Shown: positions 8,530-30,802 of the stretch, in pieces
Position numbering within the stretch: position 1 is the stretch's first letter
Layout of the letters: each line of letters starts with the position of its first letter
DNA from: a virus
Length of the DNA stretch: 30,802 nt
Reading direction: 5' to 3' (one strand)
IMG/VR virus record: IMGVR_UViG_3300042731_004814
Location: 1 to 30,802 of that record
Translations under genes and position numbers: made by a program
The notes under the pieces: generated by a model
The model's input: only the letters and a program-made list of their open reading frames with translations
Told to the model about the DNA's origin: nothing
The model's database searches: none

Positions 8530-8533
8530 TTTT

Positions 8534-10953: not shown

Positions 10954-10954
10954 T

Positions 10955-11910: not shown

Positions 11911-11915
11911 ATGCT

Positions 11916-12541: not shown

Positions 12542-12557
12542 CATAACAACATATAAG

Positions 12558-12614
12558 GGAGTATACTAAGTGTAGAAACACTTTTCGCCCTTTTTTCTAA
12601 AAGGGTTTTACTCC
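12558..12614 (+). promoter_or_regulatory. Three-way-junction RNA element upstream of the scaffold gene
   Basis: The outer stem GGAGTA (12558-12563) pairs with TACTCC (12609-12614). Inside are two perfect hairpins: AAGTGT (12568-12573) with ACACTT (12578-12583) around loop AGAA, and CCCTTTT (12588-12594) with AAAAGGG (12599-12605) around loop TTCT. The two loops are exact complements, so they could kiss. The element ends about 10 bases before the AGGGAGG ribosome binding site of the scaffold gene. It may be a processing site, a stabilising element or a translational control element; only four T follow, so terminator activity would be weak. Confidence 0.55.
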
Positions 12615-12638
12615 TAAATCCATAGGGAGGTCAATTTT

Positions 12639-13469: not shown

Positions 13470-13492
13470 GGGGCTCTCCTTAAGACCCCTTA
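13467..13492 (+). promoter_or_regulatory. Strong hairpin overlapping the scaffold stop codon
   Basis: TAAGGGG (13467-13473) pairs perfectly with CCCCTTA (13486-13492), and an inner TCT/AGA stem closes loop CCTTA. The 5' strand begins with the scaffold stop codon. No T run follows, so it is more likely a processing or stability element between scaffold and head genes than a terminator. Confidence 0.5.
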
Positions 13493-13513
13493 CATAGGGA
13501 AGGGGTTGTAAGG

Positions 13514-14017: not shown

Positions 14018-14032
14018 AAAGGAGATGCTAGT

Positions 14033-14929: not shown

Positions 14930-14971
14930 AGGGGCTAGACTCCCAGTACCTTCTTGAAAGGAGGGTGTCAT

Positions 14972-15466
14972 ATGCCTAAAAATGTGCTAGGTACAACTTT
15001 AAGTACTTCATATCATGGAAGTACTGATTATAAAATTTTTGGAACTAAAGGTGAATGCTATTTAAGGTATGTACATGAAGATGTATCATGGTCAAGTTCT
15101 GGTCTTGATATTTCAACAGCAGGTAATCATGGTCATACTCTTATAACAATGGGTGGTACAGACCCAACTACTGCTGTAGCGTTACTTAGTTTAGCAGCGC
15201 CCGTAGCTGGATGTTCTAAAATTGTTACACTTGCTTCTACTGCTGCCCATATAAACAATGTTGATATTGATTTAGGTTCTGGTGTAAGTGTTGGTACATC
15301 AGATAATAGATATATAGCTTTTTCAAGTTTAGCTTCAAGTTACCAAAGTATTTCTCTTTTAGGAGTATCAACAGCAAAATGGATTGTACAAAGTGTTAAT
15401 TCAACAGCATATTTCGGAGCTGCGACAGGTATAAGGTCAGCAGCTACAGCAAGAACTACTGCGTAG
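14972..15466 (+). CDS. Unknown small virion protein, beta-rich
   Basis: Starting at ATG 14972 after GAAAGGAGGGTG, this 164-residue protein is rich in Ser, Thr, Ala and Gly, with short hydrophobic strands, a typical composition for decoration or head-fibre proteins. It directly follows the capsid gene. The C terminus (GIRSAATARTTA) is low in complexity. I recognise no family. A TTG at 14954 gives a longer frame but lies at the edge of the ribosome binding site. Confidence 0.5.
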   Translation: MPKNVLGTTLSTSYHGSTDYKIFGTKGECYLRYVHEDVSWSSSGLDISTAGNHGHTLITMGGTDPTTAVALLSLAAPVAGCSKIVTLASTAAHINNVDIDLGSGVSVGTSDNRYIAFSSLASSYQSISLLGVSTAKWIVQSVNSTAYFGAATGIRSAATARTTA

Positions 15467-15473
15467 TTTATAC

Positions 15474-15489
15474 AGCCCCGAAAGGGGCT
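15474..15489 (+). promoter_or_regulatory. GNRA-loop hairpin between two head genes
   Basis: AGCCCC pairs with GGGGCT around a GAAA tetraloop, a very stable small hairpin, followed by TTTACTT. The T run is broken, so it may be a weak terminator or a 3' stabiliser for the abundant capsid mRNA. Confidence 0.5.
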
Positions 15490-15514
15490 TTACTTATATT
15501 AGGAGGTGTAATTT

Positions 15515-15868
15515 ATGTATGTAAGAGAGGTTTATAAAAAGTTGTTGTCCGCGATACCAGAAAATATACCATCATCGGATAGTACAAGTTTTAATTTTAC
15601 TCAAATAAATAGTACTACTTTATCTATTTTTCCAGGTTCTACAACTAAAATATTTGGTAGAAATTATGGGGTTACTATAACTGCTACTACTGGTGGGCTA
15701 TACATACTACCATCTAGTTATACTACTACTCCTACGGAACCAACCTCAGACAATTCATATTACATGAATGAGGGTGATGTATTAACACTTAGAGTACCTT
15801 ATTTTTTAAGTGTGAAGGGTGATTCTACAACAGCCGCTTATAAGGCTGCTATTTGGAGTGATGAATAA
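15515..15868 (+). CDS. Unknown small Ser/Thr-rich head or connector protein
   Basis: The 117-residue product starts with a short helix (REVYKKLLSAIPENIP) and continues as a Thr/Ser-rich, strand-forming protein (TTTPTEPTSDNS in the middle). AGGAGGTG precedes the ATG, and the stop overlaps the next ATG by one base. No family is recognised. It may be a second decoration protein or a connector part. Confidence 0.5.
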   Translation: MYVREVYKKLLSAIPENIPSSDSTSFNFTQINSTTLSIFPGSTTKIFGRNYGVTITATTGGLYILPSSYTTTPTEPTSDNSYYMNEGDVLTLRVPYFLSVKGDSTTAAYKAAIWSDE

Positions 15869-16515
15869 TGGATAAGACTTTAGCTCAGTTGTTAGCATGG
15901 GTTGATGAATCAGTACCTAATAGGATACCAACTACATCTAAGCTTAGATATATAGCTGAAAACCTTGGTGATTCCATGTTTGCTAAGTATAACTCAGCTA
16001 AAACTTGGTATGACACTTATACAGTAGCAGATCAAGCAGAGTATAACTTACCTACTGGGATAAGGGTTACAGATCTTATATATGTTGGAGTGTCTGGTAC
16101 TACCTATAATACAACAGATGTAATTGGGACTTCAACTCCTTTTAATGAGTATAAATATGCTGGTCTTAGGGATGATAAAAGTCCAAGTTATACAGATTAT
16201 ACAACTCAGATCGCTTTAGTGCCTGCTCCAGATGATGCCTATCATATGAGGCTGATATATACACCTCAGTATAGAGATATGGGTTGTGAGTTAACAGATT
16301 CAACAACAATTATATCAGCGGACACTCCGCTTATTAACTGGTTGCAAAGCAAAGTTGCTGCAAGAGTCTGTAAGAGTATGGCTTTTCCAAGGATAGACTT
16401 AGGTAATAACTATGAGATAGATGCTGAAAGTTATCTGGGTGATGCCAGGCTTAATTGGTATAACAATAAGAGAAGACTTAGCAAGACAAATATAGGTTGG
16501 AGAGATTGGTGGTGA
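15868..16515 (+). CDS. Head-tail adaptor (P22 gp4-like)
   Basis: The 215-residue protein resembles the tail-accessory adaptors that sit beneath podoviral portals. It has an N-terminal helix (LAQLLAWVDESVPN), the typical beta element ADQAEYNLPTGIRVTDLIYV, a strand with MRLIYTPQYRDM, and a C-terminal helix rich in aromatic and basic residues. The position between head and nozzle genes agrees. The assignment rests on pattern and order. Confidence 0.6.
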   Translation: MDKTLAQLLAWVDESVPNRIPTTSKLRYIAENLGDSMFAKYNSAKTWYDTYTVADQAEYNLPTGIRVTDLIYVGVSGTTYNTTDVIGTSTPFNEYKYAGLRDDKSPSYTDYTTQIALVPAPDDAYHMRLIYTPQYRDMGCELTDSTTIISADTPLINWLQSKVAARVCKSMAFPRIDLGNNYEIDAESYLGDARLNWYNNKRRLSKTNIGWRDWW

Positions 16516-16519
16516 TCAC

Positions 16520-17968
16520 ATGTTATGGGATGCTATTTCTTCAAAAAAAATAATAATAACTATGGGCCATGGTCAAGGTATTAATAAGTATAGAGACAAT
16601 GAGCTTGAACTTAACAATGAAGAATTAACAGATTCCTTAAATATGTCTGCTGACGCATATCCAGCTATAAGGACAAGAAATGATAGAGATAAGATGGAAT
16701 TACCACAATCTACTAAAGCTATATGGGGTATGGGTAAAAGGTATAATACTTATCTTCATGTGCTTGAGGATAATACATGGAAGTATGCTGAACCTGGAGC
16801 TACTTCATGGGCTAATATATCCACTGAAATAGCAGCTCCGGGATTAGCATCTTTTGTAGAATTTAATACACAAACTAAAAGAGTTACTATTATAGCTTAT
16901 AGTACTGGTACAGTGTACAACTCTTATTGGGATGGTGTTACTTATTCTACGTTTGCTGATACTAATGCACCAAGAAGTAACTTGTACACTGCACACAGAT
17001 ATAGACTGTACGGAGTTGAGAATGATGGGAGAATGCTTAGATATTCTGCACAAGGTGACTGGACGGACTTTACTACTGCTGATGATGCCGGATACCTAGA
17101 TATAACAGAAGTTCAAGGTGCTATAACTGCCATAACTACTTTTGCTGACCATCCAATAGTTTGGTCTGCTAATTCTATGCATGAATTATATGGAACAGGT
17201 CCAGACAATTTCGAACTTGTTAACATTTCTTATACAATAGGCTGCGTGTCAAGATTTGCATATACAGAGCTAGAGGGAAGACTATTTTGGATGGACTACA
17301 GTGGGATTTATATGTACACAGGTGGTCTACCTCGAAAGATAGCAGAAAAAGCCAATGGTCTTATTGAGAAGATTAATTGGAGTGTTAAAGAACTGATAAG
17401 AGCTGGGGGTATTGATGGGAAGATATACTTCGCCATACCTTATGATGGCAGTACTACTGTTAACAGGCTTTTAGTAATAGATCTGGTTGATGATAAAAGG
17501 GCTCCTTATGTAGTTAATATGGAAGATGGAAGTTGGAATAGTATCACCAGGATAGGCGAAAAATTATATGGTCTGGATAGTACAGGTTTTATATGGGATT
17601 TGCACAGTACTAAAATAACAGGATATGACAACAGTACTGCTATAAGCTGGAAGTTTGAAACTAAACCTTTCACAGATGAAGTAAGTAATGAAGTAGCTGT
17701 AAGAGATATATGGGTTAGACACCAGTCAGGTACTACAAATGCTACTATGCAGCTTGGATATACTACAAATAATAATAGTACTACTTATACTGTTCTTGGT
17801 GCTTCATCAGATTTTGTTGCGGTACCTTATGAAACAAGGAAACAAATTTGTCCAACTCCAACAGATTTACAAGGTATGGGTTATATGAAATTTAAGTATT
17901 CTGGAACTGGTCATAAAAGAATTTCAGGTACAAAAATAAATCTTATAACATATGGTGAGGTGGTTTAA
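16520..17968 (+). CDS. Tail nozzle / stabilisation protein (P22 gp10-like)
   Basis: The 482-residue protein has an opening ITMGHGQGINKY followed by LTDSLNMSADAYPAIRTR, the pattern found at the start of podoviral nozzle or stabilisation proteins. The rest is a run of beta strands with repeated aromatic-Gly motifs, as in a propeller. It would continue the DNA channel below the adaptor. GGTGGTGATC precedes the ATG and the next gene starts directly after its stop. Confidence 0.65.
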   Translation: MLWDAISSKKIIITMGHGQGINKYRDNELELNNEELTDSLNMSADAYPAIRTRNDRDKMELPQSTKAIWGMGKRYNTYLHVLEDNTWKYAEPGATSWANISTEIAAPGLASFVEFNTQTKRVTIIAYSTGTVYNSYWDGVTYSTFADTNAPRSNLYTAHRYRLYGVENDGRMLRYSAQGDWTDFTTADDAGYLDITEVQGAITAITTFADHPIVWSANSMHELYGTGPDNFELVNISYTIGCVSRFAYTELEGRLFWMDYSGIYMYTGGLPRKIAEKANGLIEKINWSVKELIRAGGIDGKIYFAIPYDGSTTVNRLLVIDLVDDKRAPYVVNMEDGSWNSITRIGEKLYGLDSTGFIWDLHSTKITGYDNSTAISWKFETKPFTDEVSNEVAVRDIWVRHQSGTTNATMQLGYTTNNNSTTYTVLGASSDFVAVPYETRKQICPTPTDLQGMGYMKFKYSGTGHKRISGTKINLITYGEVV

Positions 17969-19885
17969 ATGTCTGAAATGGTTAACCAGTTATATTCCTT
18001 TGATGAAGATGGTATCCAGAGACTTACTAAAGACCTTAACTATATGTTCCAACACTTGGATGAAAAAAATGTCAGAAGACTCTATACAGAGTACTGTGAG
18101 ATAAGCAGTAAAGATGGAGAAACAGAAATAGACGGACCTTTACTTGTTATGAGGGCTAGTGGTTCTGCGGTTGTAAGACTTAAAGCCGGTTGGGATGCTG
18201 CTGCTGGTGAATTTGTGTTTAACCTATATGACAAGACTGGAAACCCTGTTATAGAACTTGATAGTACCGGGGATGCTGTATTTAGAGGAAGTATTAATAC
18301 TGATGAAGATATATATGTAGGTAATAGAATTTTTGTTGGTTGGAATGAATCTACAAACATACCACCAGCGGCTACGCTTTCTACAAGGGGTATATACTTT
18401 ATTGAACCTGGTACAACTAAGTATATGGCGGCTATATATAGTACAAATGTACAAAGCCTTATAGGTACTACATATCCTGTATATGAGTTTGAAATGGAAA
18501 CAAGTAATGCTATGAATATAACTTCTAAGAATAAAAGTAGGTATTACATGTATGCTGGTTATGATGGTGCTTCAACAGCTACTATAAATAGTACCGATAA
18601 AATGTCTTTTAGAGCTTTTAATGGTTTAGCCTTCTTTAACACTGAACATAATGAGCATAGTACTGCTAAAAGAGGTACTTATATAGGAGAGGATAATCAT
18701 GCAGTATATCTAGGTAGTTATGACGATTATTACAATCAAGTGACTAAAGTAATAGACCAGGAACAAAAATACATGGACAATGAATTAAGGTATTACTTTT
18801 CCCACAACCAAAGGTTTATAGCAAGTCCAACATCAGACTGGCTAAGAAATGCAACAACTAATGTGACACACAATTATTCTACTAAGACTATAACAAGTAC
18901 TAATAATATATATTTTAGGCTATCTGATACAACAATAAACACTTATGCGTCTATGGAAAGTACTATACCTAATCGAGATTTAACAACTTTCCCTGATGGT
19001 TCAAGTGCGAGTACAGATGATTTTATTGTGTTTATATTTTATGCTTACAGCACAAATATAAATCCAACTCATGGCGTGTATATCCACTTAGGTACCAATA
19101 ATGCAAACTACTATAGATACTATCTTACTAGTACTAATGGTGATGAATGGACTACTGGTTGGAATCATTTATGGCGTAAAATAGGAGCTTATGAGAGCGC
19201 AGCAGGAGCACCTACACTTAATAATATATCATGGGCAAGAGTTGGTATAAGAGGTCAAGGTGATACAACAGCATCAATTGTCATGGACTATATGGGTATC
19301 GCGAGAGCTAATAGTACGGATGCTACTGCTTATAATACTTTTCAGAGGTATACCAGTAATGGTGTTACGGAAAACCAAAAAGTTTCTTATTTTGGTGAAG
19401 TATTTAGAGAGCATGAAGGTGAACCAACGCTTTGCCCAGTTAATATTAATGGATATGCAATTACTGATACTCCTATAAGAGGTGCCGTACAAGACTTTGA
19501 TGTAGAAGTTCAGGGGTACTCTTTAAGGAGTAACTATGCACCTACATTAACAGCTTATTTTGACGCCGATAATTACAGTATCGCCGAAATGACATCTGGT
19601 AGATTACGTGTTAGAGGGTACCAAAGTGGTAGTACTTTTGGTGATTATATAGATTGTAAATCTTATTCAGCTTATGAAGATATTCATTTAAAGTTTAAAA
19701 GACAAGCTAATAAATGGACAGCCGCTTTTTGGACAGATGGTGACGCTGAAAGTTACAGGGAAGTTACTTATTTTAATGGTCCTACTACTAGATTAGATTA
19801 TGTATATCTATATTTAGGGCATTCTGATCTAGACAGTGGTGTGAGGATAAAAGATATAAAACTTAAAAGATATAACTCATATTAG
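17969..19885 (+). CDS. Tail fibre/appendage-like protein, likely receptor binding
   Basis: The 638-residue protein begins with a helical segment likely to attach to the tail. A beta-rich unit follows (LKAGWDAAAGEFVFNLYD and TGNPVIELDSTGDAVF) of the kind found at the base of phage fibres, then long stretches rich in Thr, Ser, Asn and Tyr. The last 130 residues (from about GAVQDFDVEVQGYS) look like a lectin-type jelly roll and may bind the host surface. GGTGAGGTGG precedes the ATG. No catalytic signature of a depolymerase was seen. Its Ser/Thr/Asn content makes it one possible target of the sugar cassette, which is inference. Confidence 0.6.
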   Translation: MSEMVNQLYSFDEDGIQRLTKDLNYMFQHLDEKNVRRLYTEYCEISSKDGETEIDGPLLVMRASGSAVVRLKAGWDAAAGEFVFNLYDKTGNPVIELDSTGDAVFRGSINTDEDIYVGNRIFVGWNESTNIPPAATLSTRGIYFIEPGTTKYMAAIYSTNVQSLIGTTYPVYEFEMETSNAMNITSKNKSRYYMYAGYDGASTATINSTDKMSFRAFNGLAFFNTEHNEHSTAKRGTYIGEDNHAVYLGSYDDYYNQVTKVIDQEQKYMDNELRYYFSHNQRFIASPTSDWLRNATTNVTHNYSTKTITSTNNIYFRLSDTTINTYASMESTIPNRDLTTFPDGSSASTDDFIVFIFYAYSTNINPTHGVYIHLGTNNANYYRYYLTSTNGDEWTTGWNHLWRKIGAYESAAGAPTLNNISWARVGIRGQGDTTASIVMDYMGIARANSTDATAYNTFQRYTSNGVTENQKVSYFGEVFREHEGEPTLCPVNINGYAITDTPIRGAVQDFDVEVQGYSLRSNYAPTLTAYFDADNYSIAEMTSGRLRVRGYQSGSTFGDYIDCKSYSAYEDIHLKFKRQANKWTAAFWTDGDAESYREVTYFNGPTTRLDYVYLYLGHSDLDSGVRIKDIKLKRYNSY

Positions 19886-19897
19886 GAGGTGACTTAG

Positions 19898-21331
19898 ATG
19901 CCAACTTATGAACAATTATTATCTAACTTACAACAAGGTTTTGCGGGTCAAGACTTCACAAGTTATGCTCAGAATCAAGGAATACCTGTAGCTTATAATC
20001 AAGATTTAAATAGGCTTTTAGTAGGTAATACTCCTGTAAACATGCAAAATTTAGGTCTTGAAAATCAGGAGGGTAAATTATATGGGAGTGAAACTACTTA
20101 TCAACAACTATTACAACCTTATTTAAAAACAGGTCCAACAGATATAACACAGCTTAAACCTTATGAAACGCCTGAATGGATTAAACAGTATATGAAAGAT
20201 ATGATAGCTGAACAAGCTAGCCCTTGGGAATATAACATGGAGGAAGACCCTTCTGTTATAGCAGCTAGGGAACAATTAGAAAACTCAATGGCTGAAATGA
20301 CAGGTAAAAGAGGGTTTTTGTATGGTACAGCTCAACAACAACTTATAAACCAGGCATTCAATAAAGTTGCTCCTATGTTTGAAGAAGTAGCCTACCAGAA
20401 ACAAGCAGATCGGTATCAAAGGCAAATGCAGTTAGCTAATACTATCATGCAGTGGGATGACATGTTAGCTAATAGGAAAATGGCTGAGAATGAATTAGTA
20501 AAAATGAAAGCTGATTTTATGCTTAGTCTTAACCAAAGGGATTTAGAAATATTCAAAGTCATGCTTAATCAGAGAAGATTTAATATGGAACTTGAATTAG
20601 ATGAGAAAAGGTTTGATCTTGAAAAAAGAAAACAAGAAATGGATTTAGCTTGGAGAAAAGTTAATGAGCTTGGATACGCTGACAATGAAGCTGCTGCGAT
20701 ATTAGGAGTTAAACCAGGTACAGAAGCCGGATGGTCTAAAAAACTAATACTCCAGCACAAACAAGAAATTGAAACTATGAATAAGAAAAATCAGTATGAC
20801 ATTAAAATGTTATCTGTCAATAAAAAAATAGAGATGGATTTAATAAAAGAACAAGAGAGAGTAAAAACAGAAAGTCAAATGAGACTTATGGAAGTTGAAT
20901 ACGGCTTTAAAACTGCAATTGTTGAGGTTGAAGAAGTTTATAGAAGAAAATTAGAAGCTAAAAGAGAAGCAGAAAGAAAAGCAGAAGAAGCAAGAATCAG
21001 AAGAGAAGAAGAGGCAAAAGCTAGAGCAAAAGCAGAAAAAGAAGCTAAAGAAGAAAACTTTGACATACAGTATAAAGGTATGCTTGCCAGACTTAAATCG
21101 TCTTATGTAAGGGATGGTTATATACCAGAAGAATATCAAGAAGCTGCATCTAAAATGCTATATGATAATTTAAAAAATGGGACTATTGATAATGCTGTGT
21201 ATAACAGACTTATAGCCGAATATTGGCTAACAGAATATACACCTAAACCTAAATATAATGAACCTTTCCCTAAATTAGAAGGAGTATCCGATTTTAATAT
21301 GTGGGCTTTGAATTTAAGTAGAAGCTATTAG
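19898..21331 (+). CDS. Internal virion / ejection protein, paralogue of the next gene
   Basis: The 477-residue protein is almost wholly alpha-helical and glutamine-rich, with a long charged coiled coil (about residues 170-400, including an alternating K/E/A/R segment). It shares an ordered series of motifs with the next gene: GKRGFLYG against GAKGTLYS, an MxWDxM segment, RDLEIFKVMLNQRRF against QDFEKFQLMLEQRNF, and LGYADNEAAAILG against LGYVDNEAAIVLG with a following GW. The pair therefore arose by duplication. It lacks the hydrolase domain of its sister. Helical proteins at this position in podoviruses are usually injected with the DNA. Confidence 0.65.
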   Translation: MPTYEQLLSNLQQGFAGQDFTSYAQNQGIPVAYNQDLNRLLVGNTPVNMQNLGLENQEGKLYGSETTYQQLLQPYLKTGPTDITQLKPYETPEWIKQYMKDMIAEQASPWEYNMEEDPSVIAAREQLENSMAEMTGKRGFLYGTAQQQLINQAFNKVAPMFEEVAYQKQADRYQRQMQLANTIMQWDDMLANRKMAENELVKMKADFMLSLNQRDLEIFKVMLNQRRFNMELELDEKRFDLEKRKQEMDLAWRKVNELGYADNEAAAILGVKPGTEAGWSKKLILQHKQEIETMNKKNQYDIKMLSVNKKIEMDLIKEQERVKTESQMRLMEVEYGFKTAIVEVEEVYRRKLEAKREAERKAEEARIRREEEAKARAKAEKEAKEENFDIQYKGMLARLKSSYVRDGYIPEEYQEAASKMLYDNLKNGTIDNAVYNRLIAEYWLTEYTPKPKYNEPFPKLEGVSDFNMWALNLSRSY

Positions 21332-21345
21332 AAAGGAGGGTTATT

Positions 21346-23265
21346 ATGGCTAATGATACTGCTCTATCTGCTTTAAACTCAGACTTATTATCACAGATAC
21401 AAAATTTAGGTGTGCAACCCTCTGACACTTTAACTTCTGCTTTACAAAGTAATGATGCTGTAGCAAATTTAACTAGTCCTTATAAGTTTAGTGACTGGGC
21501 TAGTGCTAAAGGATATGAATACAACTATGAGCAAGGAACAGATACACATAGTATAAATGGTATAACTATACCTAATAATATTATGAATACTCTTCAAGGA
21601 GATTATGCAACACCAAAAGTATATGAAAATATATTAACTTCTTATAATGATTTGTTAAAGCAGCAGCAAGAACAACAGCAGCAACAAGCAATAACTACCA
21701 CAACAGGTGGTGAAGCTGCTAAATCTAACTTAGAAACCGGTGAGTATGTATCACCATACCAACAGCAGCTACAAGAAATATTAGACCAATTAAACCAGTA
21801 TACGCCCTACCAAACCCCCGAAGAATTAGAACAGTATGTTTATCAATTATTACAATCAGCAAATGAACCTTTTACTTATGACCCTTCTACTGATGCTGCA
21901 TTATTATCAGCGCAGCAAGAAGCAGGGCGGCAAATAAGAGAAGCTGCTGGGGCTAAAGGTACATTGTATAGTTCTGCGACACTTACCGGAGCTGCAAAAG
22001 CTAAAGGAGCTTTGATTCCAGAATATGAGCAAAAAGCTTACAGCAGATTTGCTGACCAGAAAAACAGAGAAGTTAATATGATAACAACACTTATGAAATG
22101 GGATGAGATGCAGGCTGATAGGTACAATGACCAGTTGGATCTCATTAAGACAAAATTTGATTATATTATGAACTTAGAGACTCAAGATTTTGAAAAATTC
22201 CAACTTATGTTAGAACAAAGGAATTTCCAAAAAGAATATGACTTAGAAATGCAGGCATTACAATTACAAAGAGAGATACAAGCTATTGAAGAAGCTTATG
22301 CAAGAGTAGATGCATTAGGTTATGTAGATAATGAAGCTGCTATAGTTCTTGGGATGCCTGTAGGTGAAAAAGCAGGCTGGGTAAAACAGCTTGAGTTAGA
22401 ACATAAACAAGAATTAGCAAGAATTAAAAAAGAATATGAGAATGAGAAAAAACTTCAAAAATCACAAGCTAAAATAGAAAAAGAATTAATAGCTTATAAA
22501 AATAAATTAGAAGAAGCAACTAAGAAAAAATTAATGGCTGAACAATATAAATATGATAAGAAATTAGCTAAATATAAAGGTGAACTAGCTTTAGGTGGAA
22601 GTATTAAAGGAACTGCTGGTATAGTAGCCGCTGCTAAAAGTCTTAAAGGTCTTAAGTATGTATACGGAGGTACTAGTACCACTAAAGGTATGGACTGTTC
22701 TGGCTTTAGTCAGTGGGTTATGAAACAAAATGGTGTTAGTATTGCTAGGACAGCACGCGACCAAGCAAAACAAGGTAAAAAAGTATCTAGGAACAGTTTA
22801 CAAGTTGGAGATCTTGTATTTTTTGATACTATATCAGGAAATGGGAGAAGTGTTGACCATGTTGGTATCTATATTGGCAATAATAAAATGATACATGCTA
22901 GTTCTGGTAGTGGTAAAATCATTGAAGTTAATATGAATACAAGTTATTGGAATGACAGATTTACTACAGCTAGAAGGTTCTCTACTACTAAGAGCTATAG
23001 TGGTAGTAGCGGTAGTAGCGGTGGAGGAAGCAGCAGTGGTGGAAGTAGCGGTTATAATGCTGTATCAAGTAAGTACTCTACTAAAGCTATTCAAGCGATA
23101 CTAAAAGATGCTGGGTATTACTCAGGTAAATTAGATAATGATTATGGGCCTGCTACAACAAAAGCAGTTAAAAAATTCCAGAAAAAATATGGCCTAACTC
23201 AAGATGGTATCGTAGGTAAAGAAACAATGGCAATGCTGATTACTAAAGCGTCAGGATATATTTAA
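21346..23265 (+). CDS. Ejection protein with NlpC/P60 peptidase and peptidoglycan-binding domain
   Basis: The first 410 of 639 residues match the preceding paralogue (helical, Gln-rich; note the QQQEQQQQQ run near 106-114). Residues 425-545 form an NlpC/P60 peptidase: GLKYVYGG (435-442), the catalytic cysteine in MDCSGFSQ (C451), LQVGDLVFFD (485-494), the catalytic histidine in DHVGIYIG (H505), and a third polar residue in MIHAS (H517). A glycine/serine linker (551-570) leads to a PG_binding_1 domain (about 577-633, with GYYSGKLDNDYGPAT and FQKKYGLTQDGIVG). The protein probably opens the host cell wall locally during DNA entry. AAAGGAGGG precedes the ATG. Confidence 0.85.
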   Translation: MANDTALSALNSDLLSQIQNLGVQPSDTLTSALQSNDAVANLTSPYKFSDWASAKGYEYNYEQGTDTHSINGITIPNNIMNTLQGDYATPKVYENILTSYNDLLKQQQEQQQQQAITTTTGGEAAKSNLETGEYVSPYQQQLQEILDQLNQYTPYQTPEELEQYVYQLLQSANEPFTYDPSTDAALLSAQQEAGRQIREAAGAKGTLYSSATLTGAAKAKGALIPEYEQKAYSRFADQKNREVNMITTLMKWDEMQADRYNDQLDLIKTKFDYIMNLETQDFEKFQLMLEQRNFQKEYDLEMQALQLQREIQAIEEAYARVDALGYVDNEAAIVLGMPVGEKAGWVKQLELEHKQELARIKKEYENEKKLQKSQAKIEKELIAYKNKLEEATKKKLMAEQYKYDKKLAKYKGELALGGSIKGTAGIVAAAKSLKGLKYVYGGTSTTKGMDCSGFSQWVMKQNGVSIARTARDQAKQGKKVSRNSLQVGDLVFFDTISGNGRSVDHVGIYIGNNKMIHASSGSGKIIEVNMNTSYWNDRFTTARRFSTTKSYSGSSGSSGGGSSSGGSSGYNAVSSKYSTKAIQAILKDAGYYSGKLDNDYGPATTKAVKKFQKKYGLTQDGIVGKETMAMLITKASGYI

Positions 23266-23280
23266 TAGGGGGGGTTTAAG

Positions 23281-26200
23281 ATGTCTAAATGGGATTTATA
23301 TGATTATGATAACGAAGCTACAAAGTATATAGAGATGGAAGCTGAAAAACAGAAAAGAAGACAGCAGGAATATGCTTCTAAACTTTCCCCTCTACATACT
23401 GGTGGGACTTTTGACTATGAAAGACAGGCTGAAATGGATAAGGAATTGGATTTTGATGAGCTAGACACAGAAGTCCAATATCAATATAACAGGAAACAAT
23501 TTTTCAGTAATATGAAAGAACCAAATTTTGATATTACTGAAACTGTTAAAACTACAAAACCTAATCCAGCAGCAGGAAGCTTATTACATAGTATGGGTGT
23601 TAGACCTCTAGCAAAACCTATGAAAGTATATAAATTTAAAACTATAGATCAGGAAACTGGAGCCGAGGTAATAGTACCACAAAAAGAAATAGAAGTAGTA
23701 GCAGAAAATGACAACAACTATTATTACTTTACAAAAAAGGGGCTGCAAACACTTGCAAAAAATGAAACTAGTAAAAATAAATTAGATTCAAAAGTATTAA
23801 AGCAAAGATTCATGATGCAGATAAATAAGCAGTCTCAAAACCTGGCTAAAAATATGTCAAGTAATATGCAAGCCGGGGATAAAATAAAAAGAGATGTAGA
23901 AAGTCCAAGAGATTTATCTTTAAATTTTATTACAGATAAATTTGGTGGTCCTACTCCTGACTGGGGTAACATAACAGTAGGTGATGCTGAGCAGAAAGCT
24001 AAAGGTTTTTTATTTGGTTTCGGCGATACTCTTATGACACCTATAAACTGGGTTGTAGACCAAGCAATTAAAAAATCTGGATCTTATACACATGATGAAA
24101 ATTATTATAAGAAAATGTCTTTTAAATTAAAAAATGGTGAAATTCCTAAGGAAATGCAAGAAGCTATAGATAAAAAATTTAATATGGAAAAAACAGCTAA
24201 ATACCCTCCGGGTTATTCAGAAGAAACTGATGTTATGGAAGCTGGAGGCTCAAGGGAACAAATAGCAGAAGCAAGAGAAAAAGACGAAGAAAAAGCTTTC
24301 AGGTCTTTTGTTGGTAAAAAACCTGGCGAGGAAATAACAACTGCTGATAATGTAGCTAAAATAGCAGGTGAAATAGTTGGTACTTTAGTTGAATTTGCGG
24401 CTTTAGGTAAGGTATCAGGTGCAGTAACAAAAGGTATAAAAGGGTTTAAATATGCTGATTGGATTAGAAAAGGTGCTGATGCAATCATCACTGGTGGTGG
24501 CTACGGATTTTTAGAAAAATTAAAAGAAAAAGATGCAACAGCTATAGAAACTTTTAAAAATTCTATGGAAGAAGCAGGGTTCTTCCTTGGTGGTGGCTTT
24601 GCTGCTAAAGGTGTCGGAAAAGCATTTGGAAAAGGTCCTACCAAAACATTATTCAAAGAAATAGCAAAGAGAGGTTCTCAAGCTGCTGCTTTTGGTATCG
24701 GTGGTGCAGCAGGAAGTATACCTGGTATGGAAGAAGAAGAAATGACTAAGAAAAACCTACTTGGTAAAGCTGCTATGGGTACAGCTTTTGAACTAGGCGG
24801 AGGACTTATAACTAAAAGAGGTAGAAGGGGATTTTCTAATAAAGTTCTAAAAAAATTAGGAAAAATAGGTAAGAAAAAAACAGTTATAAAAGGAACTGAA
24901 TTTGAATCAGAATTTGGGCTTGATAAACCTGTTAAAGGTCTATCTATCAGAAAAAAAACAGAAATGGCGAATGAAGCCCAAAAAAAATTAGTAAATGAAA
25001 TTGGTGAAAGAATTAATGCTAAAGTTGGATCATCATCACCAAAAAAAGTTGTTGAATACTATAAAAAGAAATATAAGCTTAAAGGAAAAATAAAAGTAAC
25101 AAGGGATTTAACAGGAAATGAAAATATTGCAAGAGTTGAAATCACAGAAAATACTAAAAGTGGAAAAGTAATAGAAGTAAAAGTTAATCCTGAAAAAGAA
25201 GCAGCAGAAGTAACAGGAGCTATTAGACATGAAATTGAACACATTAGAGATGATGACATTGGTTTTATAAGAAAAGATGTAATAGAACCTAAGAGAGGTG
25301 TTAAAACTCTTAAAGAATATATGCAAAAGGATGAGCACCATAAAGATTATGAAAACTTTGAGATCGAATATCTTGAGAATATATACAACCAGGAACTTAA
25401 AACTGGTAAAAGCTTTTCAGAAATAAAAGAAGGAGTTAAAAATTTTAAGAATCAAAAAAGTATAGCTGCTTTAGAAAAACAAGAAGCAGCTCTTAAGAAA
25501 CAATTAAATGTTAAAAAAATAGGAAAAAAAGCAAGAACTAAAATACAAGGTCAGCTTAAAACTATAGAACAACAAAAAGAAAGATATAGAAGCAGCATGA
25601 GACTTTTCAGTGAAAACAAACCTTTAAGAAATGAAGTTATACATGCCACTAACAGAGAACTAACAGGAGCATCTAACCTTCCTACTTATGTTCCTGAAAG
25701 AACTAGTACTAAGAGCAAAGTTAAAAATATAGCTGAAAGAATGTATACAACTGTCTTTAACAGGCAGGAAGCAATTGATAAAATTGGTAAGAAAGTTAAG
25801 ATAACAAGCCAAAACTACAGCAGTTATCATGGAACTGTAGAACATATTAATACTAAAAAATTAGTATCCAGACATGGAAGAGAAATAGGAACTAAGAGTC
25901 TTAAAGATGTAATAGTAGCTCCTAAAGGTTATCAGGCTGAATTTGAATCATATCTCTACCATAAAGCTCATATTGGCAGGATGAAAAGAGGTAAACCTAT
26001 AGTAGCTGATGCAGATGGTAAACCCATGAAAATAGATGAGGCTAAAAAAGTTATAGCTAAGTATGAAAAAAAATTCCCTCAGTTTAAAGATGCTTCTAAA
26101 GATGTATATCAATTTATAGATGACTTTATGCAAGAATGGGCTGTAGATGGAGGACTCATAACAAAAGCGGAGTATAAACAATTAAGAAAATGGTATCCAG

Positions 26201-28092
26201 AATATATACCAGCATTTAAAGACTTAAAAGAATTTGCTTTTTTAGATGCACCTAGAAATGTAGTTAGCAATAGAGTTATAAAACAAGCTGTAGGTGGAAC
26301 AGAACCTTTAACACCTCTGTCAGAGTCATTACCTGTTTATATTCAGCAGGTTGTTAGAGCTCAAAGAAGAAATCTAGTACATTCAGAAATACTTAATGCA
26401 GCTATCTTAAATCCAGAAGGTATGCAAAAATATGCAGAAGTATACCAGCCTAAAAAAATGAGAAAAGAAATATCAAAAATACTTAATAATTTTGGAGATG
26501 GTAATGAAGTTGAAGGAACAATTAACAAAATAAATAATCTTTTAATAGATACTGCTCCAACTAAAGGTAGATTTGCTGTAGTACTTGCAGAAGGTCAGCC
26601 AATTACTATGAAAATTAACGACCCAAATGTGTGGAAAGTACTTACAAAATTACAAAAAGCGGGTACCAACCAATCTAAATTCTTAGAAATAATGGAAAAA
26701 GGGTTTTCAAAACCTTTTAAAAATGTGGTAACTATTTATAATCCTTTCTTTGCTGTAAGAAATATAGCTAAAGATATACCAGCAGCTTATATACAGGGCT
26801 CAGTTCACAATCCTATAACTTTTGCTATTAACTTTGCAAGTGCCTTAAAAGATATGTCTACCGGTGCTGAGCTATATAAACAATTCAAAGCTCTAGGTGG
26901 TGAATCAGCGAACATAACTAAAATGGAAAGAGCTTTAATGCAAAAAGGTAATACTAAAAAAATATTAGATAAGTTTTTTTCAGGTCTTAACTTTTTTGGA
27001 AGTGTATCAGAAACTTTACCTAGATACTCTGAGTTTAAGGCTGTGTATAAAAAAGGTATGAAAAAAGGTCTTCCTGAGCATCAAGTATTACAAGAAGCTT
27101 TATACAATGCTAAAGAGGTAACTATTAATTTTAATAGGGGTGGTGACTTAACTAAAGATGTTGATAAGGTATTTCCTTATTTTAATGCTGGACTCCAAGG
27201 TGTTGATAAGTTCTATAGAACTTTAATTAAAGATGGTATAGCAAAAGGTAACTTTGCACCTCTTATAAAAGCAGCAGGAATATCAACATCAATGACTGCT
27301 TTATCTTACTTTGCGATGAAAACTTTTGCTCCTGGAGTTTATGAAGATTTACCAGATTGGGTACTAGATAATTATTATACTTTCCCAATTGGTGATCAAA
27401 TTATAAGAATTCCTAAAACTAAAGAATATGCTTTTATTTTCAGTACTATGCTACAAAGAATTCAGAGGTCACTCGAAGGAGATCCGGATGCTTTTAAAAA
27501 TATTGACTGGAGTTCAAGTTTTATTAACCCTCTTAAAGAACTCGGAAGTGGCGGTGTATTTGGTCCTACATTAAATATCTCTATGGGCGGAAATAAAGAT
27601 TACTTTAACAGGGAAATAGAACCAGCAAAATTTAAATTCGAAAAAACTAGTAAAAGAAATATAGTAAAAGAAACTACATCAAAAGCAAGTAAAGCCTTTG
27701 CACCAATACTAGAAAAAATAGGACTTAGTCCTGCTCAAGCAGATTACTTGATAGACTCTAACACAGGTTTTGTAGGTGACTTAATCCTTAGTGTTAATGA
27801 TAAAGAAGAAAGCTTTGGAACTAAACTTGGTAGGATGTCCGGACTTACAGTAAGTGATACAGCTAGAAAAGGAACTCAGAAGAAATACGAAGATAAAGAC
27901 AAAGCTGCTGTAGAACTTAATGACTTTGAGTATAATAAAGGTATTAAAGCTAAAAAAGAAGAACTCAGAGAGCGAGGCATTACTAGAGGCTGGAGATATG
28001 AGGATGCTATAAATAATATACTTTCTTTTGAAGATAGAGAAAAATATGAAGAACTAAAAGAAAAGAAAAAGGAAGTGAATAAAGATGAATGA
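23281..28092 (+). CDS. Giant internal virion protein with HExxH metallopeptidase motif and LPD38-like region
   Basis: At 1603 residues this is the largest gene in the window. The N-terminal quarter is charged. About 355-520 holds several glycine/alanine-rich hydrophobic helices (IAGEIVGTLVEFAALG, FFLGGGFAAKGVG, QAAAFGIGGAAGS) that could enter membranes. A zincin motif follows in IRHEIEHIRDD (H650, E651, H654). From about 1150 (NPFFAVRNIAKDIPAAY to VFPYFNAGLQGVDKF) the protein matches my knowledge of the large polyvalent-protein domain LPD38, found in proteins injected by phages. It is probably ejected with the DNA to form a channel and cleave a host or virion target. Domain names are from memory of motifs; the substrate is unknown. 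Confidence 0.75.
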   Translation: MSKWDLYDYDNEATKYIEMEAEKQKRRQQEYASKLSPLHTGGTFDYERQAEMDKELDFDELDTEVQYQYNRKQFFSNMKEPNFDITETVKTTKPNPAAGSLLHSMGVRPLAKPMKVYKFKTIDQETGAEVIVPQKEIEVVAENDNNYYYFTKKGLQTLAKNETSKNKLDSKVLKQRFMMQINKQSQNLAKNMSSNMQAGDKIKRDVESPRDLSLNFITDKFGGPTPDWGNITVGDAEQKAKGFLFGFGDTLMTPINWVVDQAIKKSGSYTHDENYYKKMSFKLKNGEIPKEMQEAIDKKFNMEKTAKYPPGYSEETDVMEAGGSREQIAEAREKDEEKAFRSFVGKKPGEEITTADNVAKIAGEIVGTLVEFAALGKVSGAVTKGIKGFKYADWIRKGADAIITGGGYGFLEKLKEKDATAIETFKNSMEEAGFFLGGGFAAKGVGKAFGKGPTKTLFKEIAKRGSQAAAFGIGGAAGSIPGMEEEEMTKKNLLGKAAMGTAFELGGGLITKRGRRGFSNKVLKKLGKIGKKKTVIKGTEFESEFGLDKPVKGLSIRKKTEMANEAQKKLVNEIGERINAKVGSSSPKKVVEYYKKKYKLKGKIKVTRDLTGNENIARVEITENTKSGKVIEVKVNPEKEAAEVTGAIRHEIEHIRDDDIGFIRKDVIEPKRGVKTLKEYMQKDEHHKDYENFEIEYLENIYNQELKTGKSFSEIKEGVKNFKNQKSIAALEKQEAALKKQLNVKKIGKKARTKIQGQLKTIEQQKERYRSSMRLFSENKPLRNEVIHATNRELTGASNLPTYVPERTSTKSKVKNIAERMYTTVFNRQEAIDKIGKKVKITSQNYSSYHGTVEHINTKKLVSRHGREIGTKSLKDVIVAPKGYQAEFESYLYHKAHIGRMKRGKPIVADADGKPMKIDEAKKVIAKYEKKFPQFKDASKDVYQFIDDFMQEWAVDGGLITKAEYKQLRKWYPEYIPAFKDLKEFAFLDAPRNVVSNRVIKQAVGGTEPLTPLSESLPVYIQQVVRAQRRNLVHSEILNAAILNPEGMQKYAEVYQPKKMRKEISKILNNFGDGNEVEGTINKINNLLIDTAPTKGRFAVVLAEGQPITMKINDPNVWKVLTKLQKAGTNQSKFLEIMEKGFSKPFKNVVTIYNPFFAVRNIAKDIPAAYIQGSVHNPITFAINFASALKDMSTGAELYKQFKALGGESANITKMERALMQKGNTKKILDKFFSGLNFFGSVSETLPRYSEFKAVYKKGMKKGLPEHQVLQEALYNAKEVTINFNRGGDLTKDVDKVFPYFNAGLQGVDKFYRTLIKDGIAKGNFAPLIKAAGISTSMTALSYFAMKTFAPGVYEDLPDWVLDNYYTFPIGDQIIRIPKTKEYAFIFSTMLQRIQRSLEGDPDAFKNIDWSSSFINPLKELGSGGVFGPTLNISMGGNKDYFNREIEPAKFKFEKTSKRNIVKETTSKASKAFAPILEKIGLSPAQADYLIDSNTGFVGDLILSVNDKEESFGTKLGRMSGLTVSDTARKGTQKKYEDKDKAAVELNDFEYNKGIKAKKEELRERGITRGWRYEDAINNILSFEDREKYEELKEKKKEVNKDE

Positions 28093-28303
28093 GCTGGAAT
28101 GTAAATTAGTAGAATTAGAACAAAGAATAGTAAGACTTGAAGTACAAACAGAAGGTGTACATGAAGCTCTTACAAATCTTGAAACAAAAGTAAGTTCAGG
28201 TTTTAAAGATACTAATAGAAAATTTATGAAAGCTATGTGGGCAATAATCGGAATATTATTGACCATTTCTGGGACTTTAATATATAATTTTATTATTAAA
28301 TAA
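28085..28303 (+). CDS. XhlA-like coiled-coil membrane protein (lysis-associated)
   Basis: The 72-residue protein has an N-terminal heptad coiled coil (about residues 3-45) and one C-terminal transmembrane helix (MWAIIGILLTISGTLIYNFI), the plan of the haemolysin XhlA family that works with holins in Bacillus phages. Its ATG lies inside the end of the giant gene and it is the last gene before the late terminator. Confidence 0.65.
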   Translation: MNELECKLVELEQRIVRLEVQTEGVHEALTNLETKVSSGFKDTNRKFMKAMWAIIGILLTISGTLIYNFIIK

Positions 28304-28348
28304 ATATACACTCAAAAAACATATTGCGTAAGTTTTTGTCATCCCTAT

Positions 28349-28378
28349 ATAAACCCTCCTATCAGGGTTTATTTTTTT
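28349..28378 (+). terminator. Intrinsic terminator ending the late structural operon
   Basis: ATAAACCCT (28349-28357) pairs with AGGGTTTAT (28364-28372) around loop CCTATC, followed by a run of six T. Its loop resembles that of the terminator at 1120-1147. It separates the virion genes from the following promoter and operon. Confidence 0.85.
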
Positions 28379-28386
28379 ATTTGTTA

Positions 28387-28414
28387 TTGACATCTTAATG
28401 TTATATAATATAAT
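28387..28414 (+). promoter_or_regulatory. Consensus sigma-A promoter of the lysis/host-interaction operon
   Basis: TTGACA (28387-28392) and TATAAT (28409-28414) are both perfect consensus boxes, 16 bases apart. The expected start is near 28421, about 40 bases before the next gene. A second TATAAT at 28404 overlaps but is too close to the -35 box. The strong promoter suggests expression by the unmodified host polymerase. Confidence 0.85.
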
Positions 28415-28460
28415 TGTAACAAAGTATAAAACAACTTGAGATTTTTAGGAGGTGTCTTTT

Positions 28461-28697
28461 ATGGACAATAAAAGAAAAATACCTTTAAAAATAGCACTCG
28501 TATGGGGGATTTATCTCTTATACATAAACACAATTCAAATTAAGATATCCAACATTTTAAGTTTAATACAAATGAAAGATAGTAATTTAGGAGGGTTATA
28601 CACTCTCTGGGGTTATTTAGAAGTGATACTACCATTTTTATTAATGGTGTATTCATGTTTTTTGATTTATAAATTAAAAAAAGGAGATAAGATATGA
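28461..28697 (+). CDS. Small two-pass membrane protein, holin candidate
   Basis: Starting at ATG 28461 after AGGAGGTG (28447-28454), this 78-residue protein has two hydrophobic helices (ALVWGIYLLYINTI and LEVILPFLLMVYSCFLIY), a basic N terminus and a basic C-terminal tail. Size and topology fit a class II holin, and a lysin gene lies downstream. It is the first gene behind the promoter and overlaps the lipoprotein start by four bases. No holin family is recognised for certain. Confidence 0.6.
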   Translation: MDNKRKIPLKIALVWGIYLLYINTIQIKISNILSLIQMKDSNLGGLYTLWGYLEVILPFLLMVYSCFLIYKLKKGDKI

Positions 28698-29584
28698 AAA
28701 AATTATTTGTACTATCTATTTTTATAAGCTTATTGTTATGTAGTTGTGGGTATGATTTGTATGAGATCCAGACACATGAGACTGCCTTCTTGATTCCACT
28801 TGAAGGCAAAACTAGCGACCAAGCTAAGTTTGACTCTGCCAAAATGGTAAATGAATTAAAAGTGTCTGCTAAAAGAGTAAAAATTGAAAAAGATTACAAG
28901 TGGATGCATGGCAATAAACCAATGTCAAAACTTGTAAAAGTTAACCGAAAACCGGTTAACAGGGAATGGACTGAAGAAGATAAAACAGGTTCTTCAAAGA
29001 AGAACCAGGCTTTTATTGCTGAAAGTAATGAAAGTACCAGTTTTTATGCTAGATTCAGTTGCACTTGTAATATCATTGAAAAAGATGCAGCTTTATATCT
29101 TTACACATACCCCAGCAATATAAAACTCTCAAAGATAATGGATACTGAAATACGTACCAGAATAGGTGGGGCTTTTATAGACGAATGCGGAAAATATAAC
29201 ATGTCTGAGATAATCAAAAAAAAATCAGACATACTTAAAAGTGTAAAAAGTATAGTTATCCCATACTTTAAAAAGAAAGGTATAACTATATCAAGTCTTG
29301 AATATTGTAGGGACTTTTCCTATCTAGACGAAGCAATACAAAAAGCTATTGACGAAAAATTCAAAGCTAAAAATTCTGCGGAGGCTCAAGCTATAAAGAA
29401 CAAGAAAAACATAGAAAAAGCCGAAGCAGATAGAAGAGTAGTAGAACAACAAAAAGCTACTCTAGCTAAGACTATTCAACTAAGAAAGCTAGAGATCCAA
29501 GAAGCATGGATCAAGAAATGGGATGGTAAACTTTCTACTTATCAAGGTTCTAGCGGCTCAATCATGCAAATACCTATAAAATAA
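28694..29584 (+). CDS. Lipoprotein with band-7/SPFH-like domain
   Basis: The 296-residue protein starts with a lipoprotein signal (MKKLFVLSIFISLLLCSCG); cleavage before the second cysteine (C18) is likely, anchoring it on the outer face of the membrane. The middle matches the end of SPFH/band-7 domains: KKKSDILKSVKSIVIPYFKK followed by KGITISSLEYCRDFSY, then a helical region with repeated basic and acidic residues (KKNIEKAEADRRVVEQQKA) as in prohibitins. SPFH proteins form membrane rings. A phage-encoded outer-face version could act in superinfection exclusion, membrane protection or lysis timing. The domain call is from pattern; function is inferred. Confidence 0.65.
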   Translation: MKKLFVLSIFISLLLCSCGYDLYEIQTHETAFLIPLEGKTSDQAKFDSAKMVNELKVSAKRVKIEKDYKWMHGNKPMSKLVKVNRKPVNREWTEEDKTGSSKKNQAFIAESNESTSFYARFSCTCNIIEKDAALYLYTYPSNIKLSKIMDTEIRTRIGGAFIDECGKYNMSEIIKKKSDILKSVKSIVIPYFKKKGITISSLEYCRDFSYLDEAIQKAIDEKFKAKNSAEAQAIKNKKNIEKAEADRRVVEQQKATLAKTIQLRKLEIQEAWIKKWDGKLSTYQGSSGSIMQIPIK

Positions 29585-29602
29585 AATAAAAAGGAGCTAA
29601 AA

Positions 29603-30187
29603 ATGGAAACTCATAAAAATTCAACAGAAGAAATATTTGAATCTATCCTAAAAGTAGCTTTAAATGCTTGTGAGTGCGACGCTTGCAAAAAAAGAAGAGC
29701 AAAAGAAGCCGAAGAATTAAAAAAAGAAATACCAGAAAAAATAAAACTCAGATTTAAACAAGATAGTTTGAGGCATAAATTATTGTCAGAATTTTTAGTA
29801 GAAGACAATCTTCTAGAACTATATAGAGATTTCATTGAACTAATGAAAAAATACAGTACAAATAAAGTCTTGGATATCGAAGAAAGAGATAAAGATGCTG
29901 AACTATTATATCAATCCTTAGTTAGGTTTGTTGAAGAAAACTCTGAACTTATAGAAGAATTCATGAGTATCTCAAAAATACTAGACCCAGACGACCCTTT
30001 AAAATATCAAGCAAAGTACAACAATGTAAAATATCATAAATATGATGTAGTAATCAATTTTTTCGAATTATTTGCATCCTATTTAAAAGGAATTGGATCA
30101 GCCCAAGTTACATCAAAAAACATATTACTACTATTCAAGGAAATACTCGAATTTTATTCCTTTCTGAAAGGAATAAAAAATGAGTAA
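29603..30187 (+). CDS. Unknown alpha-helical protein
   Basis: The 194-residue protein follows a clear AAAAGGAG ribosome binding site. It has no signal or membrane segment. A CECDACKKRR motif near residue 28 is a lone cysteine cluster; the rest is amphipathic helix. I recognise no family. It sits between the lipoprotein and small membrane proteins in the same operon. Confidence 0.6.
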   Translation: METHKNSTEEIFESILKVALNACECDACKKRRAKEAEELKKEIPEKIKLRFKQDSLRHKLLSEFLVEDNLLELYRDFIELMKKYSTNKVLDIEERDKDAELLYQSLVRFVEENSELIEEFMSISKILDPDDPLKYQAKYNNVKYHKYDVVINFFELFASYLKGIGSAQVTSKNILLLFKEILEFYSFLKGIKNE

Positions 30188-30290
30188 TATAGTAGCAGTA
30201 TTACTGCTACTTTCAGGTATTATGATAGGTTGCTGCTTAATACCTGTAATAGCAATAGGGGTGGAAAAATTATGGGAATTAGTGAAATAA
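30180..30290 (+). CDS. 36-residue single-pass membrane peptide (DUF3789-like)
   Basis: ATG at 30180 follows AAAGGAA and opens a 36-codon frame ending in TAA. The peptide is nearly all hydrophobic (MSNIVAVLLLLSGIMIGCCL) with a short charged tail (VEKLWELVK), and resembles small phage proteins of the DUF3789 type. It overlaps the previous gene by 8 bases and the next by 19, so all three are coupled. The small size makes the call moderate. Confidence 0.55.
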   Translation: MSNIVAVLLLLSGIMIGCCLIPVIAIGVEKLWELVK

Positions 30291-30544
30291 TAATAATAGC
30301 AGCAGTATTCATACAACTTATAGCATCACTTGTAATACTCTTACGCTCTGATAAAAGAGATAAAAAGTATTACAAGTATAAAAAAAAACAAGTTGAAAAA
30401 CTTGTGGATTTAAATACAGATATAGATATGCTTACATTTAAAATCAATTCTCTAAGACATAACTTAGACGCATTGATTAATAAAACTAAAGGGGTAAGAG
30501 GTATGAAAGGTACTGGAACTGTAGAAGAAAGTATAACTAAATAA
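30272..30544 (+). CDS. Small membrane protein with coiled-coil tail
   Basis: The ATG at 30272 follows AGGGGTGG inside the previous small ORF and gives 90 residues: an N-terminal transmembrane helix (ISEIIIIAAVFIQLIASLVILL), then a strongly basic stretch and a heptad-rich tail. This is the plan of phage lysis accessory proteins (holin partner or i-spanin-like), but the Gram-positive-type host makes a spanin unlikely. An upstream frame extension from 30230 has no ribosome binding site. Confidence 0.55.
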   Translation: MGISEIIIIAAVFIQLIASLVILLRSDKRDKKYYKYKKKQVEKLVDLNTDIDMLTFKINSLRHNLDALINKTKGVRGMKGTGTVEESITK

Positions 30545-30558
30545 TAGGAGTGGTAGAT

Positions 30559-30802
30559 ATGAAGATTTATCTAAGTCCTTCTACTCAAGAACACAATAAA
30601 GGTGTGGGAAATTACAAAACGGAAGAATACAGATGTAATCTCATCTGTGACAGGGTCGAAAAATTACTAAAGAATTACAACGTTACTATTAAAAGAAATA
30701 AACCAACGATGAGTTTAGGACAAGTTGTAAAAGACAGTAATAATAATAAACCAGACTATCATGTAGCAATTCACACCAATGCTTATAAAGGTTCTAGTAG
30801 AG
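30559..30802 (+). CDS. N-acetylmuramoyl-L-alanine amidase (endolysin), cut by window end
   Basis: The first 81 residues are visible after an AGGAGTGG ribosome binding site. MKIYLSPSTQEHNKGVGNY and the TEEYRCN that follows match the start of Clostridium-type Amidase_3 lysins, and VAIHTNAYKG corresponds to the SIHANA metal-binding motif. The enzyme would cleave the bond between muramic acid and the stem peptide to lyse the host. The C terminus, with any cell-wall-binding domain, is outside the window. Confidence 0.85.
   Translation, partial: MKIYLSPSTQEHNKGVGNYKTEEYRCNLICDRVEKLLKNYNVTIKRNKPTMSLGQVVKDSNNNKPDYHVAIHTNAYKGSSR

Follow-up and report, generated by a model that had tools for sequence, protein, structure and literature searches.

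Two overlapping genes of the virus sequence analyzed here probably encode one membrane complex, a lipid-anchored SPFH (Band 7) dome with a helical hairpin as its client, which may guard the membrane of the phage host. The record is a linear virus sequence of 30,802 bases, and this whole stretch is referred to as the window. The features at and around the two genes (the cassette) are:

28085-28303: XhlA-like protein upstream of the cassette, weak match (PHROG E 0.0025, Pfam E 0.88)
28349-28372, + strand: intrinsic-terminator-like stem-loop and T-run that closes the upstream unit (9-pair stem with 3 G-C, then TTTTTTATTT)
28387-28414, + strand: sigma-70-type promoter before the cassette, TTGACA-16-TATAAT (12/12 consensus match)
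28447-28452, + strand: AGGAGG ribosome-binding site of the partner gene, read directly
28461-28697, + strand: partner gene, 78 aa, two predicted transmembrane (TM) helices with the N-terminus inside, the loop outside and the C-terminus inside
28694-29584, + strand: SPFH/Band 7 lipoprotein gene, ATG start, 296 aa; signal peptide ~1-17, putatively lipidated Cys18, SPFH domains ~21-204, long helix 213-275
30550-30801: Amidase_3/endolysin start downstream of the cassette, cut by the contig end (profile matches)

The product of 28694-29584 is an SPFH protein

The initial annotation had assigned an SPFH/band-7-like domain to this product and had named structure prediction against stomatin and HflK as the check. 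The Pfam Band_7 profile matched residues 111-238 with 37 bits (cut-off 23.6, E 4.7e-9). The PHROG family phrog_200, labeled 'lipoprotein', matched with E 6.6e-20, and this profile was also matched by 38 of the 40 members of the SPFH set, whereas phmmer of the window protein against PDB sequences gave no match. An AlphaFold2 model, built from an alignment of 40 family members, had a mean pLDDT of 87.0 and showed the SPFH fold followed by a helix of 63 residues (213-275). The best Foldseek matches of this model in the PDB were HflK/C (7vhq), prohibitin (8rrh), stomatin, and erlin (E ~1e-9, probability 1.00), and its top structural matches were SPFH proteins only. VIA aligned the model with prohibitin 8rrh_B (Z 13.2, rmsd 4.3, 213 residues) and 7vhq_G (Z 13.1, rmsd 9.4, 240 residues), with unrelated rows further down at Z ~9-10. 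The fold thus groups with SPFH proteins, and the SPFH/Band 7 identity is confirmed at the level of the predicted structure; a fold unrelated to SPFH, which would have refuted the annotation, was not seen. In a viral structure library, the model matched Band 7 proteins from phages and giant viruses.

An externally anchored SPFH protein beside membrane proteins and an amidase had been described as unusual, only half of which holds. Phages commonly carry SPFH proteins (607 phage records matched in a tblastn search with one query), and HflK/C, which are SPFH proteins too, likewise sit on the inner membrane's outer face, as stated in excerpts of PMC12048511. Phage SPFH lipoproteins are already known and named, phage SPFH genes are widely annotated, and passages of a 2020 phage paper call their function 'poorly understood' (PMC7760394). 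The window protein shares the SPFH fold with the phrog_200 proteins (e.g., Vi01_108c of Vi01 and gp105 of KNP2). In contrast to the distant members of phrog_200, the window subfamily has an extra conserved segment, Q..F.S...L...KVA.KR, and its own partner family.

Secretion, proposed in the same annotation together with the lipoprotein assignment, is supported by the N-terminus, where a short charged start and a hydrophobic stretch are followed by LCSC at positions 15-18. The lipobox Cys18 is invariant in the alignment (42/42 rows). A relaxed lipobox pattern is present in 36 of the 40 distinct members and the strict pattern in just 16 of the 40, with the window protein failing the strict form (Cys at -2). 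From the invariant Cys and the relaxed pattern, set against the strict one, it is likely that the SPFH protein is secreted and lipid-anchored.

The SPFH gene is preceded by a gene for a small two-helix membrane protein

The stop codon of the partner gene at 28461-28697 overlaps the start codon of the SPFH gene by 4 nt (ATGA). Small membrane proteins had already been noted beside the SPFH gene and are indeed present, but the dedicated partner among them had been missed. The window partner gave no match in Pfam or PHROG, and a scan of 16 partners against both revealed no common family and no holin family; Pfam gave no match to FtsH or NfeD. An iterated partner HMM recognized the window partner with E 4.8e-9, the window sequence being itself among the seeds. 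Partner lengths across the set are 78-107 aa. The sequence is poorly conserved, with 8-25% identity to the window's partner and no stretch conserved enough for a collection scan. In 34 of 35 partners, the two tails together carry more Lys and Arg than the loop, which averages 34 residues. Because these residues are concentrated in the tails, the prediction is that both ends face inward and that the hairpin tip faces outward, where the SPFH protein lies as well. The best conserved positions, an Ala (0.79) and a Gln (0.90), are near this tip (consensus A..Q).

The pair is kept together across relatives

A single-sequence scan of IMG/VR with the window SPFH protein found no relative. Relatives were therefore sought with SPFH profiles, and were gathered by SPFH patterns alone, with the partner sequence unused. 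A three-row SPFH profile yielded 12 viral and 3 genome loci, and a 14-row profile yielded 48 viral loci, 11 of them already in the set. The resulting 55 records comprise the window, MT835676, phage G, and 52 loci, among which are near copies (L010/L011, L003/L016, L036/L059, L049-L052, and L055/L057/L058). The de-duplicated SPFH sets exclude two loci, L012, whose SPFH gene contains an in-frame TAA, and L020, which the contig end truncates. In L012 (position 6721), a phage contig of 176 kb, the C-terminal part of the family continues in frame after the TAA; this represents a broken gene, a sequencing error, or recoding.

In 52 of the 55 records, the iterated partner profile matched next to the SPFH gene or inside it (E <= 1.1e-8). 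The match was weak in L002 (E 0.081) and L044 (E 9.8) and absent in L045; by eye, each of these three has a two-TM segment in that place. A non-iterated profile of 16 seeds matched 30 of the 37 non-seed loci at E <= 0.01 and 34 of the 37 at E <= 1. Searched within the SPFH-gathered loci, it had no match with E < 0.01 elsewhere in their 694,763 bases. As an adjacency control, we counted two-TM proteins of 65-115 aa that directly precede a gene. Such a protein precedes the SPFH gene in 32 of 34 loci, compared to 2 of the 298 further genes in these loci that encode 120 aa or more. Both misses (L047 and presumably L014) were failures of the gene caller, and the partner profile matches in both.

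The partner lies upstream of the SPFH gene in 41 of the 55 records, with near-identical records counted; in L025, other sequence separates the two by 571 nt. In 10 records (L048-L052, L055-L058, and L060) the order is reversed, with the partner downstream, and in 4 records (L024, L030, L035, and L045) both proteins are in one open frame. Two more single-frame pairs, L067 and L068, come from Patescibacteria, which makes six such cases in all. L030 may also produce two separate proteins because its joint frame holds an internal ATG. In one patescibacterial locus (L073, contig C8 of genome G503), there are two tandem SPFH lipoprotein genes, the first in-frame with a two-TM partner, an arrangement that recalls HflK-HflC.

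Partner and SPFH distances are correlated (r 0.59, n=42; 0.00 +/- 0.05 for shuffled pairs), although this co-divergence can be explained by the shared descent of neighboring genes alone. In a structure model of a fusion from Patescibacteria (mean pLDDT 81, pTM 0.55), the partner is predicted as two long helices (9-46 and 52-94), with pLDDT 52-59 at the hairpin tip and no readable interface. A fold search with this fusion found mainly SPFH proteins, over residues 120-413.

A small membrane protein next to an SPFH gene was also found beyond this family. Among 18 distant phage SPFH loci, which were chosen for variety and not randomly (KNP2, cr128_1, AR9, CSP3, MT835474, DLP6, Vi01, a P1-like phage, U2, IG49, Panisse, RBC11, GH15, phi3396, S-CoN_Ph11, VOLN27B, phiEaP8, and S-CREM1), 11 have a small protein with 1-3 TM segments directly upstream, and in KNP2 it is one short gene away. 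No small TM protein was found at that place upstream in cr128_1, CSP3, Panisse, phi3396, VOLN27B, and phiEaP8. The habit of combining an SPFH protein with a small membrane protein may therefore be wider than the window family.

Genomic neighborhood and the question of lysis

The cassette had been placed in a lysis operon. In the window, the weak XhlA-like match upstream and the amidase start downstream agree with this, but the terminator-like stem and the promoter lie between the cassette and the upstream gene and part the two. Terminator-like stems numbered 9 in the scanned region as a whole, compared to 4.4 +/- 2.6 in shuffles. Of the 38 promoter candidates in 21000-30802, the one at 28387-28414 alone reaches 12/12; their total is not above chance (38.6 +/- 6.6). 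The idea that the cassette generally has a strong promoter was rejected, because the mean score before 34 cassettes (8.65/12) is nearly the same as that before 206 other starts (8.63); the strong promoter is particular to the window.

Across the family, the link to lysis did not hold among the neighbor families listed. When 122 of the 145 neighboring proteins of the relatives were surveyed, they matched 49 Pfam families, and no lysis family was among the 25 of these 49 that were listed. Replication, nucleotide, and host-takeover genes prevail among the 25, with ribonucleotide reductase, primase, topoisomerase, chaperonin, a single-strand annealing protein, and an anti-Thoeris protein as examples. 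In phage G, a Bacillus phage of 497 kb, the pair is gp64-gp65, and a Paenibacillus plasmid carries it as well. The pair or its close copies also occur in bacterial chromosomes (a Ca. Uhrbacteria bin, a Clostridia bin, Anaeromicropila populeti, and other Patescibacteria), with no phage genes in view. By eye, the cassette of the Ca. Uhrbacteria bin is near what we take to be murC- and murB-like genes, and those of other Patescibacteria are near genes that are presumably recA, ssb, and truB-like. Such chromosomal cassettes are rare: in the phylum to which the Uhrbacteria bin belongs, 5 of 286 genomes carry one, and in the class that includes the Clostridia bin, 1 of 391 does.

We weighed whether the pair controls lysis, with the two-TM partner as a holin or antiholin that the SPFH dome keeps inactive, or clusters, until lysis. 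Two TM segments with both ends inside are the layout of class II holins, and the partner is predicted to have this layout from hydropathy and charge (34/35). The XhlA-like protein and the amidase of the window are in line with such a role. However, holin turns are short compared to the 34 residues that the partner loop averages, no holin family was matched by any of the 16 partners, and the listed neighbor families of the relatives and the chromosomal cassettes point away from lysis, as described above.

A case for lysis control comes from a distant counterpart in the staphylococcal Kayvirus GH15, where the gene order is holin, lysin, a 102-aa TM protein, the SPFH protein, and a transglycosylase. 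The gene of this 102-aa membrane protein, MbpV (ORF070), overlaps there with the SPFH gene mbpS (ORF069) beside the lysis genes, and MbpV is termed holin-like, according to excerpts of the 2020 paper in which MbpV and MbpS were named (PMC7150955). MbpV has one TM segment, and MbpS begins with a TM helix and not with a lipobox. The partner profile gave no clear match to MbpV (GH15_070), with E 0.09 when nine sequences were searched. Taken together, we regard lysis control as unlikely.

Comparison with known SPFH systems

HflK and HflC are among the best structural matches, and this raises the question whether the pair is a phage-made counterpart that caps or redirects the host protease FtsH, with the partner mimicking the TM-loop-TM anchor of FtsH. 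As far as excerpts of PMC12048511 describe it, FtsH consists of a TM segment, a periplasmic domain, and a second TM segment, HflK contacts periplasmic residues 62-64, and the SPFH domains outside the cytoplasmic membrane enclose this TM-loop-TM client. An HflC-type role has also been proposed for phage CSP3, in a passage of PMC10269572. In contrast to the window pair, with one SPFH lipoprotein and a 78-aa hairpin, the HflK-HflC system comprises two TM-anchored SPFH paralogs and an AAA protease as the client. HflK and HflC act as a pair, whereas the window record holds one SPFH gene, and tandem SPFH genes were seen only in G503. The partner has no similarity to any FtsH family in Pfam. Protease control thus appears doubtful, and we give it a low probability.

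Several SPFH families are paired in operons with NfeD, as stated in parts of PMC2636767. The systems QmcA-YbbJ and YuaG-YuaF resemble the window cassette in that an SPFH gene and a gene for a small membrane protein share one operon, and the same excerpts report an SPFH-NfeD tree correlation of 0.495 overall, compared to 0.59 for the window-type pair. NfeD proteins are described there as 140-150 aa long, with three TM stretches and a beta domain; the partner is 78 aa long, has two TM segments, and has no such domain.

A further possibility is that the SPFH domain gathers Sec translocons and so helps to export an early lysin or other envelope enzymes. Excerpts of PMC7150955 suggest this in passing for MbpS, as an aid to Sec export, and Tgl of Kayvirus. 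The window has an amidase downstream, but its visible start bears no obvious signal peptide by eye, and among the neighbor families listed, an enzyme of this kind is missing for most relatives, which makes a secretion helper improbable. Finally, phages shuffle small accessory genes in blocks, and both genes are small and accessory, but mere co-inheritance of two passengers is very hard to reconcile with a pair that is kept even when its order is reversed, with the six single-frame cases, and with the adjacency counts (32/34 vs 2/298).

Proposed mechanism

The reading that we prefer is that of one membrane complex of a dome and its hairpin client. It builds on the fold, the conserved Cys, the genetic pairing, the fusions, and the co-divergence. 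The window pair would be expressed from its own host-type promoter, and the SPFH protein would be exported and made a lipoprotein at Cys18. As in other SPFH proteins, the SPFH domains and the 63-residue helix would drive assembly into a ring or dome, which would cover the cytoplasmic membrane from outside. The partner, with its 78 aa, would form a helical hairpin in the membrane, with the A..Q tip on the same side as the dome. SPFH cages surround membrane clients, as HflK/C do around FtsH in excerpts of PMC12048511. By analogy with FtsH for HflK/C and with NfeD for other SPFH proteins, the partner may be the dedicated client or an integral subunit of the dome, in physical contact with it. The least certain step is the use to the phage, for which guarding or remodeling of the host membrane in the course of infection is the likeliest candidate.

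As to this benefit, we tentatively suggest resistance to the entry of a second phage's DNA or to local membrane damage. Superinfection exclusion or membrane protection seems likelier than control of a holin because the relatives, as far as their neighbor families were listed, rarely adjoin lysis genes, the Kayvirus pair being the counter-example. According to parts of PMC3952083, superinfection exclusion commonly relies on proteins that a lipid or a helix anchors on the outside of the cytoplasmic membrane. By analogy, an exclusion role would fit this design, and membrane protection during infection would fit equally. The T4 protein Imm, a small exclusion protein with two TM segments, is a parallel. 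The superinfection-exclusion lipoprotein Ltp of phage TP-J34 acts through a repeat domain; the window model shows the SPFH fold instead, combined with a membrane partner. PADLOC gave no match for the window proteins, and this, like the finding that strong promoters are not general to the family, counts against a guarding role.

Vi01_111c, which lies in the neighborhood of the Vi01 SPFH gene and is labeled 'superinfection exclusion', was considered as support for an exclusion role and dropped, since the annotation is old and no TM segment is seen by eye. The protein (L074:15324-15644) is acidic, and its label looks doubtful.

Other genes of the window

Between the terminase and portal-like genes, the block 2644-8365 encodes a 2-hydroxyacid dehydrogenase, NeuB, a UDP-GlcNAc 2-epimerase, and a cytidylyltransferase, a sialic- or legionaminic-acid-like sugar pathway within the phage head-gene region. 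Just before the terminator, 23281-28092 encodes a protein of 1603 aa, in which only an LPD38 'large polyvalent protein' domain was recognized; an IMG/VR scan with short peptides of this protein found no relatives. Downstream of the cassette, 29603-30187 encodes a helical protein of 194 aa with a CDACKK motif. The protein just passes the cut-off for the paired amphipathic helix repeat (21.7 bits, cut-off 21.3), probably by chance. At 30181-30291, a very hydrophobic ORF of 36 aa with a CC pair, below the length limit of the ORF list, overlaps the next membrane gene, by eye.

A DNA search of phages with window positions 1-20000 gave no match. When the window genes were compared with those of terminase relatives in Clostridia (49-51% identity), none was shared beyond the terminase, save one weak match. 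Since these relatives share so little, nothing follows from them on the origin of the cassette.

Novelty and implications

Among the papers listed in literature searches on phage SPFH proteins, none dealt with this pair, the Kayvirus MbpV-MbpS being the nearest. The partner family, the near-obligate pairing, the fusions, and the presence in Patescibacteria did not appear in those listings and are probably new.

More speculatively, the pair could be a fourth SPFH machine besides HflK/C-FtsH, SPFH-NfeD, and the prohibitin type. It would consist of a lipid-anchored dome and an obligatory two-helix client with an outward A..Q tip, and would occur in phages up to the 497-kb phage G and in some chromosomes of Patescibacteria and Clostridia. 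Its two parts would have been repeatedly fused or re-ordered and almost never separated, and through it phages would keep control of a patch of the host membrane during infection. We offer this as a conjecture.

The dedicated partner makes the function of phage SPFH proteins testable, in terms of what the complex holds and what its loss does. The natural fusions are ready-made constructs for structural work, and with gp64-gp65 of phage G, both the pair and its phage already have names. Should the two proteins form a minimal SPFH cage with a single client, they would also serve as a simple model of the cages of HflK/C, prohibitin, and stomatin.
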